Source of the DNA: Phycisphaerae bacterium | GTDB taxonomy: Bacteria; Planctomycetota; Phycisphaerae; UBA1845 | NCBI GenBank assembly: GCA_029260135.1 | Contig: JAJDDV010000053.1 | Span: forward strand, 1 to 64,000 | DNA length: 64,000 nucleotides | Reading direction: 5' to 3' | Shown: positions 32,326 to 51,421 of the stretch, one piece after another | Numbering within the stretch: the stretch's first letter is position 1 | Layout of the letters: each line of letters begins with the position of its first letter | The notes under the pieces: model-generated | Seen by the model: the letters and a program-made list of their open reading frames with translations, nothing else | The model's database searches: none | What the model was told of the DNA's origin: nothing | Position numbers and translations under genes: made by a program

Positions 32326-33001
32326 GCGAACGCTTGCGGGGTCTCCCTCGCAGGCGCAAGGTGGTATCCAGTCCGAGGCGCTGAGCGATGCGGAACCGCC
32401 ATGCCTCCTGCCCGAACGGAACGCCCCGCGCCGCTGACAGGCGTACAGTGAGCAGTTCCTCCTCATCGATCACAGCGTTTGTCTGCGCGAGCCAGTTCCG
32501 CGGTCGATCTACCGGCCACGTTGACAGACAAGTAAGCAGCGCAGATCGGCGATTACGCCGGACCCACAAGCTTCCCCAGCGCCAGTCCTCCGCTCGCCGC
32601 ACGAGCTTCGCCCGTCGAGGGTTGGCCTCCACATAACGGCAGACGGTCAGGAAGTGCGAATCGTCCTGCACAGGAAAGCTCCTGAATCGACCTTGATAGA
32701 GCGGTCCCTCGCCGGCCGTGTGGGTGTGGGCGTGCCACCGGTGCGTGTGCGTGACCGTCACCCATTGCATCCAGGTCGATAGATGGGTGCGTTGGCCAGC
32801 CAGAACAACGATGTGCCAGTGATTGGGCATCAGACACCACGCGAGCAGAGACGGCGCATCCGGACGTTCCAGCGACGCAGCCAATACCCGCTCGAACGCG
32901 AGGTAGTCAGCAGCCTTCTCGAAGAGCGGCAGTCGCATCACCCGCCGGTTCAAGACGTGGTAGACAAGCCCGGCCTGCGTGACCCGTGGTGATCGTCCCA
33001 T
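32312..33001 (-). CDS. REP-associated tyrosine transposase (RAYT, Y1/IS200-like) 1
   Basis: 229 residues. It has the HUH motif in the RAYT form LMPNHWHIVVL (residues 56-66), the N-terminal YHVLNRRVMRLPLFEKAADY, and the catalytic-Tyr helix region DDSHFLTVCRYVEANPRRAKLVRRAEDWRWGS. RAYTs are single-strand transposase relatives that cut and rejoin short hairpin repeats (REPs). The coding end overlaps the left repeat cluster, and inverted copies lie 30-100 nt beyond the start codon, so gene and repeats form one unit. Not closely related to the second RAYT at 48763, which uses MPEHLHLIV. Confidence 0.92.
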   Translation of the reverse strand: MGRSPRVTQAGLVYHVLNRRVMRLPLFEKAADYLAFERVLAASLERPDAPSLLAWCLMPNHWHIVVLAGQRTHLSTWMQWVTVTHTHRWHAHTHTAGEGPLYQGRFRSFPVQDDSHFLTVCRYVEANPRRAKLVRRAEDWRWGSLWVRRNRRSALLTCLSTWPVDRPRNWLAQTNAVIDEEELLTVRLSAARGVPFGQEAWRFRIAQRLGLDTTLRLRGRPRKRSQKSS

Positions 33002-47275: not shown

Positions 47276-47584
47276 ATGCTGAAAGTGATCATCTGGATTG
47301 TGTTTTCGATCATCTCGTTGTTCCTGAGCCTGGGGTGCAATACGGACCCCGGCCAGCAAGTCTGTGGTGGGATTACGGGATTGCCCTGCAGCGAGGGGCA
47401 GTTCTGCAAGCTCGAGGTCGGGCAGTGCTGCTGCGATTTTCAGGGCGTCTGCACAGCCATCCCGGACACGTGCATCGAGCTGTTCGATCCGGTCTGTGGC
47501 TGCGACGGGCAGACGTACAGCAACGAATGCTTCGCCTGGGCGGCCGGTGTGAGCGTGGATGCGACCGGGCCGTGCGAGCCGTAG
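47276..47584 (+). CDS. Lipoprotein with Kazal-type protease-inhibitor domain
   Basis: 102 residues. The N-terminal helix ends in a lipobox-like SLGC (Cys21). A cysteine-rich segment (CGGITGLPCSEGQFCKLEVGQCCCDFQGVC) follows, then one Kazal domain: FDPVCGCDGQTYSNECFAWAAGVSVDATGPC, with the signature C-x-C-DGxTYxNxCxAxxAG. Kazal domains inhibit serine proteases by a substrate-like loop; the P1 position would lie just before DPVCG. Bacterial Kazal proteins are known but uncommon; a surface role against own or foreign proteases is plausible. Confidence 0.85.
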   Translation: MLKVIIWIVFSIISLFLSLGCNTDPGQQVCGGITGLPCSEGQFCKLEVGQCCCDFQGVCTAIPDTCIELFDPVCGCDGQTYSNECFAWAAGVSVDATGPCEP

Positions 47585-47607
47585 ACCGGGCTTCGCCTGA
47601 ATGGTGG

Positions 47608-47656
47608 GTGGCCCAGCTCGTTAGCGAAGCGCTGAGCTGGGGGAGTGATTCGTCAT
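47608..47656. repeat. REP of RAYT-2, copy 1
   Basis: Hairpin CCCAGCTC...GAGCTGGG (47612-47619 with 47634-47641), 14-nt loop GTTAGCGAAGCGCT, then the flank GGGAGTGATTCGTCAT. A half copy (ACCCAGCTCGTTTC) sits at 47697-47710. Confidence 0.88.
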
Positions 47657-47744
47657 GCTGAAAGCGCCGCAGACCGCCGCCGACATGGACGGGTGACCCA
47701 GCTCGTTTCACGGCGACGCCGGCCGGGAAGTCGGGAGAGACGGA

Positions 47745-48173
47745 ATGAAGGAACAGTCATCATCGCGAGTTGGTCCGTTCGCGCGGTCGTGGCCTGAACT
47801 CGCTCGGGTTGACGCATCCGACCGCAGAAAGTTGTACCGAGCGGCGTTTCGTCCAGTACTGCGGAGCTGGCGGTATTGGGGCATCGCGCTCGCGTTGCAG
47901 GCGGTCGCGCAGGTCGCTTTTCGAATGGCCGGTGCGGAACTCGCCTATTGGCTGCCGGATTATGCCAGGGAGATTCGGTTCCTGGCACCCGCCGTGGGCG
48001 CGGGCATCGCGGGTGGCGTAACGGTGTGGTTGGTCCAACAGCGCATCAAACACAACCTGCGTCTACTACTCAACAAGCGAGGCCTGCCGACCTGCGTTCC
48101 GTGTGGCTATGACCTCACCGGCAACGTCTCCGGCGCGTGTCCGGAATGCGGAACGACGATCGAGCAGCCATGA
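47745..48173 (+). CDS. Membrane protein with zinc-ribbon tail, array member 1
   Basis: 142 residues: a soluble N-terminal 40 residues, two transmembrane segments (about 45-65 and 75-100), and the tail CVPCGYDLTGNVSGACPECGTTIEQP. First complete gene of the tandem array; its stop overlaps the next start as ATGA (48170-48173). No function known for the family. Confidence 0.75.
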   Translation: MKEQSSSRVGPFARSWPELARVDASDRRKLYRAAFRPVLRSWRYWGIALALQAVAQVAFRMAGAELAYWLPDYAREIRFLAPAVGAGIAGGVTVWLVQQRIKHNLRLLLNKRGLPTCVPCGYDLTGNVSGACPECGTTIEQP

Positions 48174-48631
48174 TCCGCAAGACGATCATCGTCGTGTTCT
48201 TGCTCGCATGGGCGGGGACGTGTCTGGCATGGCTCTTTCGGCCGGACAGTCTGGCGCTGGTACCCATGCAGAAGACTCAGGCCGGTCGACTGGAGAGTCA
48301 TTGTGTGGTGTTCCTGGACTCGGGCGGACTCGTCATCGACTACGGCCCCTACACGTGGCGAACGCCTCCGAGGAAGTACTTCTCTCAAGTTGTCGCGGGG
48401 TTCAGCTTCGCGCATCATACAACGGCTACCCAGGAATACAGATCGTTTAGGACTCCCTACTGGGCGCTGTTTGTGCTCTTCATCGCCTACCCTGCTACCG
48501 CCTTCATCCGTGGCCCGTTGCGGCGGTATCGACGTCGCCGAAAGGGCCTCTGCGTCAAATGCGCGTATGATCTGACAGGTAACGTGAGCGGAGTTTGTTC
48601 GGAGTGTGGGGCGAAGATTGAGAAACCATGA
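48170..48631 (+). CDS. Membrane protein with zinc-ribbon tail, array member 2
   Basis: 153 residues from the overlapping ATG: signal/anchor MIRKTIIVVFLLAWAGTCLAW, an extracytoplasmic stretch, a second helix (WALFVLFIAYPATAFI), a basic RRYRRRRKGLC linker and the zinc ribbon CVKCAYDLTGNVSGVCSECGAKIEKP. The stop again overlaps an ATG (48628-48631) that begins a copy cut short by a REP. The N-terminal sequence MIRKTII recurs at 48628, 51113 and 51254, marking duplicates. Confidence 0.78.
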   Translation: MIRKTIIVVFLLAWAGTCLAWLFRPDSLALVPMQKTQAGRLESHCVVFLDSGGLVIDYGPYTWRTPPRKYFSQVVAGFSFAHHTTATQEYRSFRTPYWALFVLFIAYPATAFIRGPLRRYRRRRKGLCVKCAYDLTGNVSGVCSECGAKIEKP

Positions 48632-48684
48632 TCCGCAAGACGATCATCGTGCCCGGGTGGCCCAGCTCGTTAGCGAAGCGCTGA
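48628..48684 (+). pseudogene. Array member 3, truncated by a REP after codon 8
   Basis: MIRKTIIV matches member 2 exactly, then the frame enters the REP at about 48655 and stops (…PGWPSSLAKR). The rest of the gene is missing. Confidence 0.75.
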
Positions 48685-48704
48685 GCTGGGGGAGTGATTC
48701 GTCA
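48657..48704. repeat. REP of RAYT-2, copy 2
   Basis: Same hairpin and flank as copy 1 (GTGGCCCAGCTCG...GGGAGTGATTCGTCAT), lying within the truncated array member and 60 nt upstream of the transposase gene. Confidence 0.88.
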
Positions 48705-48762
48705 TATTTAGAGCGTCGCGTGGCGCCGTGGACACGCAGTAGCGATTCCCTACGATACGCTC

Positions 48763-49344
48763 ATGCCCTCGCGACTGCGCCGTTATGACGTACCGGGACA
48801 CTCACACTTCTGGACGGTCTCATGCTACCGTCGTCTCACGTTCTTCTGGCACGACGACATGAAGCGCGTCGTTGTCGATGGACTTCGTCGTCTACAGGAG
48901 CGCTACGGTCTCTGCATCATCGCGTACGTCGTCATGCCGGAGCATCTGCACCTTATCGTGTATCCGCACGCAAAGGGCGATGATCGCCCCATTCCCATTT
49001 CACACGTATGGGAATCGTTCAAGAAGTACATCGGGTACCACGGCAAAGCGTGCCTGCGGCGTCTCTGGCGAGAGCGTGGAGAGCTCTGGTCACCGCCTTT
49101 GAATGCATGGGCACGCGGCGGGCCGGAGAAGCGGATCATCATGGAAACGCGGGGCTACGACTTCAACATCGATCGGGAGACGACGCTTCTCGAAAAGATC
49201 GACTATAGTCACAAGAACCCGATCACGCGCGGGCTGGTCGATCGGGCGGACGATTGGCGCTGGAGCAGCTATCGTTACTATGAGCTTGATGACTCGTCGG
49301 TGTTGAGGATGGACTGGGATGGCGGCTGGCCAATCGTATGGTGA
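48763..49344 (+). CDS. REP-associated tyrosine transposase (RAYT) 2
   Basis: 193 residues. HUH motif in VMPEHLHLIVYP (residues 57-68), N-terminal YDVPGHSHFWTVSCYRRLTFF, and the tail block LLEKIDYSHKNPITRGLVDRADDWRWSSYRYY with the candidate catalytic Tyr. It differs from RAYT-1 in HUH context and length. REP copies lie on both sides: copy 2 upstream in direct and copies 3 and 4 downstream in inverted orientation, so it is the likely source of the REP family spread over 47.6-51.2 kb. Confidence 0.92.
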   Translation: MPSRLRRYDVPGHSHFWTVSCYRRLTFFWHDDMKRVVVDGLRRLQERYGLCIIAYVVMPEHLHLIVYPHAKGDDRPIPISHVWESFKKYIGYHGKACLRRLWRERGELWSPPLNAWARGGPEKRIIMETRGYDFNIDRETTLLEKIDYSHKNPITRGLVDRADDWRWSSYRYYELDDSSVLRMDWDGGWPIVW

Positions 49345-49432
49345 TGCGGCGGGATCAATCATTCCCCCAGCTCACCGCTTCGCTAACGAGCTGGGCCACC
49401 CGGCCAATCGTATGGTGATGCGGCGGGATCAG
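49329..49432. repeat. 73-nt tandem duplication spanning the RAYT-2 end and a REP
   Basis: CCAATCGTATGGTGATGCGG plus CGGGATCA occurs at about 49330 (covering the RAYT stop codon) and again at about 49403, with REP copy 3 between. The unit was duplicated together with the REP or by its insertion. Confidence 0.8.
49358..49400. repeat. REP of RAYT-2, copy 3 (inverted)
   Basis: ATTCCCCCAGCTCACCGCTTCG...CGAGCTGGGCCACC, opposite in orientation to copies 1 and 2. One base change in the loop. Confidence 0.87.
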
Positions 49433-49492
49433 CCGTCGTCGCGTTGCGGATATGCGCGCGTGTCGCACCGAATGGAATACGCGTCGCCAACA

Positions 49493-49535
49493 ATCATTCC
49501 CCCAGCTCAGCGCTCCGCTAACGAGCTGGGCCACC
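49493..49535. repeat. REP of RAYT-2, copy 4 (inverted)
   Basis: ATTCCCCCAGCTCAGCGCTC...ACGAGCTGGGCCACC. Lies 30 nt before the end of the convergent PQQ-propeller gene. Confidence 0.87.
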
Positions 49536-49565
49536 CATCCGATGGCGCTTGCACTGCACCCGTGG

Positions 49566-50921
49566 TCACTTCGGAGTCTTCCGTATTGTGTCCGACTCCA
49601 GCTCGGCGCGCAGACAGTACAGAAACCGCTCACCCCGAAGAAACAGATCGCTACCCACGATCGCCGGCGAGGCCGAGAACGAGTCATCGAGACGATTCAT
49701 CGAGAGCACCTCGAGCCGAGGCCCTTGCTTCACCACAGCCGTGAGTCCGTTGCGATCCACGATGTAGATCCGCCCAGCCGCGCCCGCGAGTGATGCGTAC
49801 ACATTGCCGATGCCGCCAAGGCGCTGGGGGCCGAACAGGACCTCGCCGCTGCGAGCATCGACGCACGTCAGATGGCCCTGGTAATGCCGCAGAAAACAAA
49901 GCACGCTGTCGTACAGCACCGGTGACGGAACGTAGGGCGTGTGCCGACTCCGCGTCCAAACAACCGCATCCGTCCCGGTAATGTCACCTCGGGAACCGGC
50001 CAGCCGAATCGCGAGCATGGCCTGCGTGTCGTAGCTGTTGGCTACATAAACCACCCCGTTTGCAGCGACAGGCGTCGCAACGACATTGCCCGACAGCCCC
50101 CCGCACTCCCAGATGACCTTTCCGCTTTCCAGATCGTAGCCGCGGACACGATTCGTAGCGCTCACGATGACCTGCGGCTCTCCGTCAACCTCGACGATCA
50201 GCGGCGACGACCACGACGTAGGTTCATTTCGGTCTACGCGCCATTTCGTTGCCCCACTCCGCTTGTCCAACGCGGCGAGAAACGAGTCGTCTTCGTGGTC
50301 CCAGTTGAGCACAATCGTATCGCCATAGAGGGCGGGAGAGCTACCTTCGCCGTGACCGTGCTTCGTGTGCATGTCGCCGAGATCGACCTGCCACATCAAT
50401 TCGCCGGTCATGGAAAGCCCATACAGGCCGCGGGACCCGAACGATGCGATGACATGTTCGCCGTCGGTCACCGGTGAGGCCGGCGCCCAGCTACCCGTCT
50501 CATGCATCCCCTCATGGGGGCGATCCGTCAGCATCTTCCGTTCCCAGACCGTCGCTCCGTTGCCTCTATCCAGCGCGAGAACGATAAACTCGATCTTGTG
50601 GGTGGGACCTACGTTGTCGTGGGCTCCGGGACGGTGAGAATGTGTCACGGCTATGGCATCACCGAGCGGCCTTGCCGTGGTCAGGAACACGCGATCGCCC
50701 CAGATGACAGGGGTGGCATGTCCCACGCCGGCGATCGGAACCTTCCATCGCACGTTCTTGGTTTCGTTCCAACGCAGAGGCGGGTCTCCGCGAGGGGCAA
50801 CGCCGGTTCCCAGTGGGCCCCGCCACTGCCCCCAATGGTCGAGGGGGTCAAGCCCGCTCTGTGCAACGGAACTGGTGGCCGACAGAAAGAAGATCGTGAT
50901 ACCAAGCAAGAATCGAATCAT
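49566..50921 (-). CDS. Secreted PQQ-like beta-propeller protein
   Basis: 451 residues. Signal peptide MIRFLLGITIFFLSATSSVAQ, then the opening WGQWRGPLGTGVAP common in planctomycete PQQ-repeat proteins, and about seven blades with GSSPALYGDTIVLN, LDKRSGATKWRV, GYDLESGKVIWECGG and VDARSGEVLFGP motifs. The fold is that of quinoprotein dehydrogenases and BamB, but it lacks a dehydrogenase disulfide/Ca site I could recognise, so it is more likely a structural or binding protein. GGAGGTGC 10 nt upstream fixes the start at 50921. Confidence 0.88.
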   Translation of the reverse strand: MIRFLLGITIFFLSATSSVAQSGLDPLDHWGQWRGPLGTGVAPRGDPPLRWNETKNVRWKVPIAGVGHATPVIWGDRVFLTTARPLGDAIAVTHSHRPGAHDNVGPTHKIEFIVLALDRGNGATVWERKMLTDRPHEGMHETGSWAPASPVTDGEHVIASFGSRGLYGLSMTGELMWQVDLGDMHTKHGHGEGSSPALYGDTIVLNWDHEDDSFLAALDKRSGATKWRVDRNEPTSWSSPLIVEVDGEPQVIVSATNRVRGYDLESGKVIWECGGLSGNVVATPVAANGVVYVANSYDTQAMLAIRLAGSRGDITGTDAVVWTRSRHTPYVPSPVLYDSVLCFLRHYQGHLTCVDARSGEVLFGPQRLGGIGNVYASLAGAAGRIYIVDRNGLTAVVKQGPRLEVLSMNRLDDSFSASPAIVGSDLFLRGERFLYCLRAELESDTIRKTPK

Positions 50922-51028
50922 CGTAAAGCACCTCCGGCACGGGTATAATACCCTGAGTTGTGCGCTGCGACAGGGTGGAAGTGCAACTTCCGTGTCACGT
51001 TCGACAGACGCTGAAGGAGCCCGCCGGG

Positions 51029-51073
51029 GTGGCCCAGCTCGTTAGCGAAGCGCTGAGCTGGGGGAGCGATTCG
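51029..51073. repeat. REP of RAYT-2, copy 5
   Basis: GTGGCCCAGCTCGTTAGCGA...GGGGGAGCGATTCG; direct orientation, with GCGATT in place of GTGATT in the flank, shared with copy 6. Confidence 0.87.
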
Positions 51074-51112
51074 GCAGTTCGATATGGCGCTCGATGCGGA
51101 TGGAGTGACGGT

Positions 51113-51257
51113 GTGATCCGCAAGACGATCATCGTGGTGTTGACGGTGGCGGCGACGGGTGGCCCAGCTCGTTAGCGAAGCGCTGAGCTGGGGGAGCGAT
51201 TCGCCGCGCCGAAAGGGCGTCTGCCCTGAGTGCGGGGCGAAGACCGAGAAACCATGA
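51113..51257 (+). pseudogene. Array member interrupted by REP: start and tail on either side
   Basis: GTG at 51113 begins VIRKTIIVVLTVAAT, then a REP (51159-51203) stops the frame. Right after the REP, 51204-51257 encodes RRKGVCPECGAKTEKP and a stop, i.e. the end of the same kind of gene with most of the body and half of the ribbon lost. Compare RRKGLC...CSECGAKIEKP of member 2. Confidence 0.75.
51159..51203. repeat. REP of RAYT-2, copy 6
   Basis: Identical to copy 5 over the hairpin and GCGATTCG flank; only about 85 nt separate the two. It splits an array gene. Confidence 0.87.
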
Positions 51258-51421
51258 TCCGCAAGACGATCATCGCGGTGTTGACGGCGATGGGAGCGTC
51301 CGTGCCGGGATCAGCTTCTGGATACCGCCGTTCGGCCAGCGGATATGCGGAAGGAGCATGTCGAGCTTTCGAATGTTGGCTTGGTGTGTGGTGGTATCCG
51401 GGTGGTCACGTCGCCAAGTAG
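51254..51421 (+). pseudogene. Array member, truncated after the N-terminal segment
   Basis: MIRKTIIAVLTAMGASVPG starts at an ATGA overlap (51254-51257) with the preceding tail. The remaining 36 residues do not match the family and there is no zinc ribbon. It runs antisense into the hypothetical gene 51270-51767. Confidence 0.6.

Follow-up and report, generated by a model that had tools for sequence, protein, structure and literature searches.

How did several copies of one gene family come to break off at nearly the same codon, two of them precisely where a REP hairpin begins? An earlier note on this DNA had proposed that a tandem family of zinc-ribbon membrane genes was expanding by duplication while REPs inserted again and again at one preferred position and converted its members to fragments. 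The question is thus which came first, the broken genes or the REPs. We analyzed the locus in its window, a stretch of 64,000 nucleotides on contig C173 of the 5.35 Mb host draft genome, and compared it with genomes of the same family of Phycisphaerae.

Layout of the locus

The features of the locus, with strands in brackets, are the following:

47276-47584: Kazal-domain gene
47606-47655 (+): REP, about 20 bp past the stop of the Kazal-domain gene
47745-48173 (+): gene A, membrane protein with a C-terminal double CxxC zinc ribbon
48170-48631 (+): gene B, intact cassette, MIRKTIIVV...CAYDLTGNVSGVCSECGAKIEKP
48628-48651 (+): head stub C, 8 codons, ATG start, ATGA overlap with the stop of gene B
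48652-48699 (+): REP C, left flank of a REP-RAYT-REP unit, starting 20 bp past the stop of gene B
48763-49344 (+): RAYT (REP-associated tyrosine transposase), above the NF047646 cutoff
49352-49404, approximate (-): REP on the right side of the RAYT unit, enclosed by the copies of a perfect 29-bp direct repeat
49490-49540, approximate (-): REP, about 25 bp past the stop of the PQQ-like gene
49566-50921 (-): PQQ-like gene
51024-51071, approximate (+): REP upstream of head D
51078-51116 (+): end of a short CDS, FDMALDADGVTV and stop, GTGA overlap with head D
51113-51153 (+): head stub D, GTG start and hence VIRKTII, VIRKTIIVVLTVA
51154-51201 (+): REP D, between head D and tail D
51202-51257 (+): tail remnant D, RRKGVCPECGAKTEKP and stop, without one zinc knuckle (45 bp) relative to gene B
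51254-51301 (+): head stub E, ATG start, MIRKTIIAVLTAMGAS, ending in non-REP sequence

As described in the earlier note, genes A and B are joined by an ATGA overlap, and the same overlap recurs between tail D and head E. The three additional MIRKTII starts that had been reported were found again as heads at 48628, 51113, and 51254, with the correction that the one at 51113 is a GTG and reads VIRKTII; none of heads C, D, and E reaches a tail in frame. The assignment of both intact genes to one zinc-ribbon family applies to gene B, but for gene A it has to be restricted to the tail, as its N-terminus is unrelated to the MIRK heads and the zinc ribbon is its sole tie to the family. Within the window, B is therefore the intact cassette, and the other cassettes are remnants, possibly also including the short CDS end at 51078-51116, whose sequence could be that of a decayed zinc-ribbon tail (compare YDLTGNVSGV). 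No known RNA families were found in the locus.

Two of the heads indeed run into a REP, and both do so at a clean consensus REP end: codon 8 is the last that remains of head C (to 48651), and head D extends to codon 13-14 (51153). However, these junctions lie about 17 nt apart and so occupy different sites. The third stub, E (51254), enters non-REP sequence after about codon 16. The lost tail does resume past the second REP, with RRKGVCPECGAKTEKP at 51202, but it is not the complete remainder of the gene. Compared with gene B, a 45-bp segment with one CxxC knuckle is gone, and between head D and tail D there is no body, which comprises at least about 100 codons in intact cassettes. Simple insertion of a 48-nt element is therefore insufficient to explain D, and deletions are needed in addition.

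The REP family and its RAYT

The REP pattern matched 51 copies in the genome and the reversed control pattern none, which together with compensatory changes on both stem arms shows that the pattern is not due to chance. The element derived from 50 copies reads GCCGG-GTGG-stem-loop-GGGGGA-nTGATT and spans about 48 nt, and the information in the flanks of these copies stops at about -6 and +6. A palindrome that can form a hairpin, with a conserved GTGG foot and many dispersed copies, is what characterizes REP families. Most copies are single, and the close pairs are mainly direct repeats 70-320 bp apart, so that the family is not organized in inverted doublets that would act as replicating units. 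In this respect, they differ from REPINs (Bertels and Rainey, 2011; PMC3116915), which are likewise RAYT-linked and mostly extragenic but form close inverted doublets. The REP family is absent from 49 of the 51 family genomes.

None of the 51 REPs lies inside a CDS called with a simple codon-usage gene caller, in agreement with the description of REPs as normally intergenic in the earlier note, although REPs inside genes have previously been described (PMC3733652). The nearest CDS end is a 3' end for 38 REPs and a 5' end for 13 (p=0.0006), a preference of the kind known from REP families, of which it should be said that only about a quarter of the REPs are at 60 bp or less and that the caller misses some genes. 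At the locus, REPs are found about 10-25 bp past the stops of the Kazal-domain gene, gene B, the RAYT, and the PQQ-like gene, and REP D follows about 37 bp past the stop at 51116. Elsewhere in the genome, three REPs (G000:C214 2231 and 4055, and G000:C121 1381) sit within coding sequence assigned by eye, from YD-type repeats, to the rhs/YD-repeat type, and shortly downstream of them follow orphan rhs C-terminal modules whose ends differ. The common position of the two C214 copies is probably due to duplication.

The RAYT scored 84.7 bits against the NF047646 profile (cutoff 80) and carries the HLH motif of the HUH type. It is bordered by a REP on each side, as is expected of a cognate RAYT; the same arrangement was seen in G018:C183, and the relative of the RAYT in G018 (65%) is likewise REP-flanked. 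The REP at head C is thus the flank of a REP-RAYT-REP unit and not a solo REP. Cleavage has been demonstrated for other RAYTs (PMC8266576). The system resembles known REP/RAYT systems (TnpA-REP, REPtron; Nunvar 2010, PMC2817692; Di Nocera 2013, PMC3733652; PMC8266576) in the palindrome of about 48 nt with a tetranucleotide at one foot, the compensatory stem changes, the REP-flanked RAYT, the preference for gene 3' ends, and occasional copies in coding DNA. It differs in its foot, which is GTGG instead of the usual GTAG, and in being a Phycisphaerae family of about 50 copies in this genome. A second RAYT-like gene at 32576-32989 (-) reached 64 bits, under the family cutoff.

A perfect 29-bp direct repeat, TGATCCCGCCGCATCACCATACGATTGGC, exactly encloses the minus-strand REP 3' of the RAYT (49327-49432), and a perfect repeat of 46 bp encloses the REP at G000:C25:9235. 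These repeats may be traces of the duplication of a REP plus spacer. Target duplication as a general rule was rejected, as direct repeats abut just two of the tested REPs.

The cassette family and its REP-free stubs

A search of the 51 family genomes with the head pattern gave matches in 26. Among the 72 heads that were read, 42 have a tail in the same frame, and about 60, in 20 genomes, are genuine heads by sequence. The sister-genus array G018:C300 contains an orthologue of gene B (G018:C300:2470, 70%) and further ATGA/GTGA-coupled cassettes, all of them REP-free, and tandem arrays with MIRK heads, CxxC...CxEC tails, and ATGA/GTGA coupling were found both there and in G060. Head D agrees at 85% over 41 nt with that of G018:C300:3710, an intact gene. 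The G018:C300 array and the roughly 60 heads bear out the proposed duplication of a tandem family, and judged by its sequence the locus belongs to a tandemly duplicating family of ATGA-coupled cassettes.

Mean column identity across 36 compact cassettes reaches 0.59 for the head and 0.55 for the tail but is as low as 0.17 for the middle. The structural model of gene B (pLDDT 78, pTM 0.51) predicts two helices of transmembrane length, at 2-23 and 97-124, with strands at 44-96 between them, and the zinc ribbon. A Foldseek search with this model returned no solved structure at E <= 0.001, and the cassette proteins gave nothing above cutoff with Pfam and NCBIfam. In other bacterial arrays of tandem small-membrane-protein paralogues, adjacent copies likewise duplicate, diversify, and decay; the arrays described here are distinguished by their stop-start coupling and by a middle that varies while the head and the zinc-ribbon tail stay constant. 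We found no paper on tandem zinc-ribbon arrays of Phycisphaerae. Such arrays are little studied, and the combination of constant ends with variable middles is the part of the locus that deserves specialist attention.

Orthologues of C and D were not found; in G018, the closest relative compared and a member of another genus of this family, the B orthologue is followed by a different gene, and a single scan of genome contigs yielded one close locus, the same contig. Head stubs that break off at about codons 9-18 were found without any REP in G018:C391, G031:C29, G031:C44, G060 (530404 and 1269093), G021:C306, G069:C346, and G025:C172, and no REP-like hairpin or palindrome was detected at the breaks in these six genomes. 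Five of the six lack the REP family altogether; G018 has four copies of it, none of them at its stub, and the order at G018:C391 (stub, unrelated gene, decayed tail plus next head) matches the layout in the window without the REP. A further case comes from a pair of congeners: csrA is stop-start coupled to an intact MIRK cassette in G060 (1085) and to a 12-codon stub in G031 (C29, 3844), with 79.6% nucleotide identity of csrA plus head up to codon 12, after which the remainder is gone in G031, where there is no REP. Similarly, G031:C22 and C44 are 94% identical through the head to about codon 11 and then differ. This recurrence of REP-free stubs implies that loss at codons 9-18 is normal for the cassette family and needs no REP. 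The impression of breaks at the same codon is in part an ascertainment effect, as head conservation ends near codon 16 and later breaks would not be recognizable.

Order of events at the stubs

We consider it rather likely that turnover of the cassettes left tail-head remnants and that REPs settled in these remnants later, the order being inferred from position. The locus would then represent part of a cassette array of the Phycisphaerae type that has become worn. The predicted product of every cassette is a small membrane protein in which the head (MIRKAIIVVLTL, the first transmembrane helix) and the tail of transmembrane helix and zinc ribbon are constant and the middle varies greatly, and neighboring cassettes are translationally coupled via ATGA/GTGA. 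Duplication would add cassettes, and deletion or replacement of bodies would remove them, leaving tail-head junctions behind. REPs spread by the RAYT would subsequently have settled in these remnants at their usual site near gene 3' ends, and direct REPs may also have recombined, with the loss of some bodies. As the stop codon of one gene overlaps the head of the next, a REP positioned shortly after the stop lands at codon 8-15 of that head, so that the usual placement of REPs would account for the codon pattern. A coupled gene array can thus mimic repeated attack by a mobile element at one codon, since with overlapping start and stop codons an element that lands just past one gene inevitably lands in the head of the next.

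What speaks against turnover as the first step is that REPs adjoin two of the three stubs at clean boundaries, and that at least three other REPs (C214 twice, C121) are located in rhs-type sequence, showing that REPs can enter formerly coding DNA. The same observations would fit a course of events in which the REP-RAYT unit and a solo REP hit C and D while these were still intact, with their bodies being deleted afterward by REP-REP recombination or decay; the position of tail D directly after its REP and the presence of nearly identical direct REPs close by are also in line with it. We nevertheless regard this course as fairly unlikely, because stubs of equal length exist in relatives without REPs, stub E has none either, and tail D lost its 45-bp knuckle segment through a deletion separate from the REP. 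Based on these sequence comparisons, including the G060/G031 pair and the loss of the body in D, the REPs probably did not cause the damage, contrary to the suggestion that they had converted genes to fragments. Even less can be said for the MIRKTII head as a preferred target at which the family was struck repeatedly. Two REPs of the genome do lie in heads, not more than 17 nt from the same position; the junctions differ, however, the left flank is uninformative beyond -6 among 50 REPs, the genome's intact heads, B and C189, are REP-free, and no other REP was found to adjoin a head, so that we give this idea hardly any credence.

The stubs could also have been kept for a function, be it that of a short, hydrophobic coupled peptide or that of a joint for recombination. 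Retention of the ATGA coupling would agree with this, as would the greater similarity of synonymous head sites within genomes than between them (0.715 versus 0.622, with a difference as large in 1 of 500 shuffles). This similarity hints at exchange among heads, but the figure still includes codon-usage differences between genomes, and the ragged ends of the stubs, followed by differing codons, look like decay; a function of the stubs is accordingly very improbable in our estimate. A further reading, which is unlikely but deserves somewhat more weight, is that the tail-head junction is a working recombination joint at which bodies are swapped between arrays at the head end. Membrane proteins would then keep their constant ends while their extracytoplasmic middles are exchanged, and the stubs and the cut at nearly a single codon would be by-products. 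If the junction is such an exchange point, the arrays of Phycisphaerae would provide a new example of membrane proteins that vary by means of cassettes.

At stub D, the REP has one open frame, which continues in frame into the tail (51159-51257, VAQLVSEALSWGSDSPRRKGVCPECGAKTEKP and stop), with a GTG start and ATGA coupling to head E, which is probably a chance occurrence.
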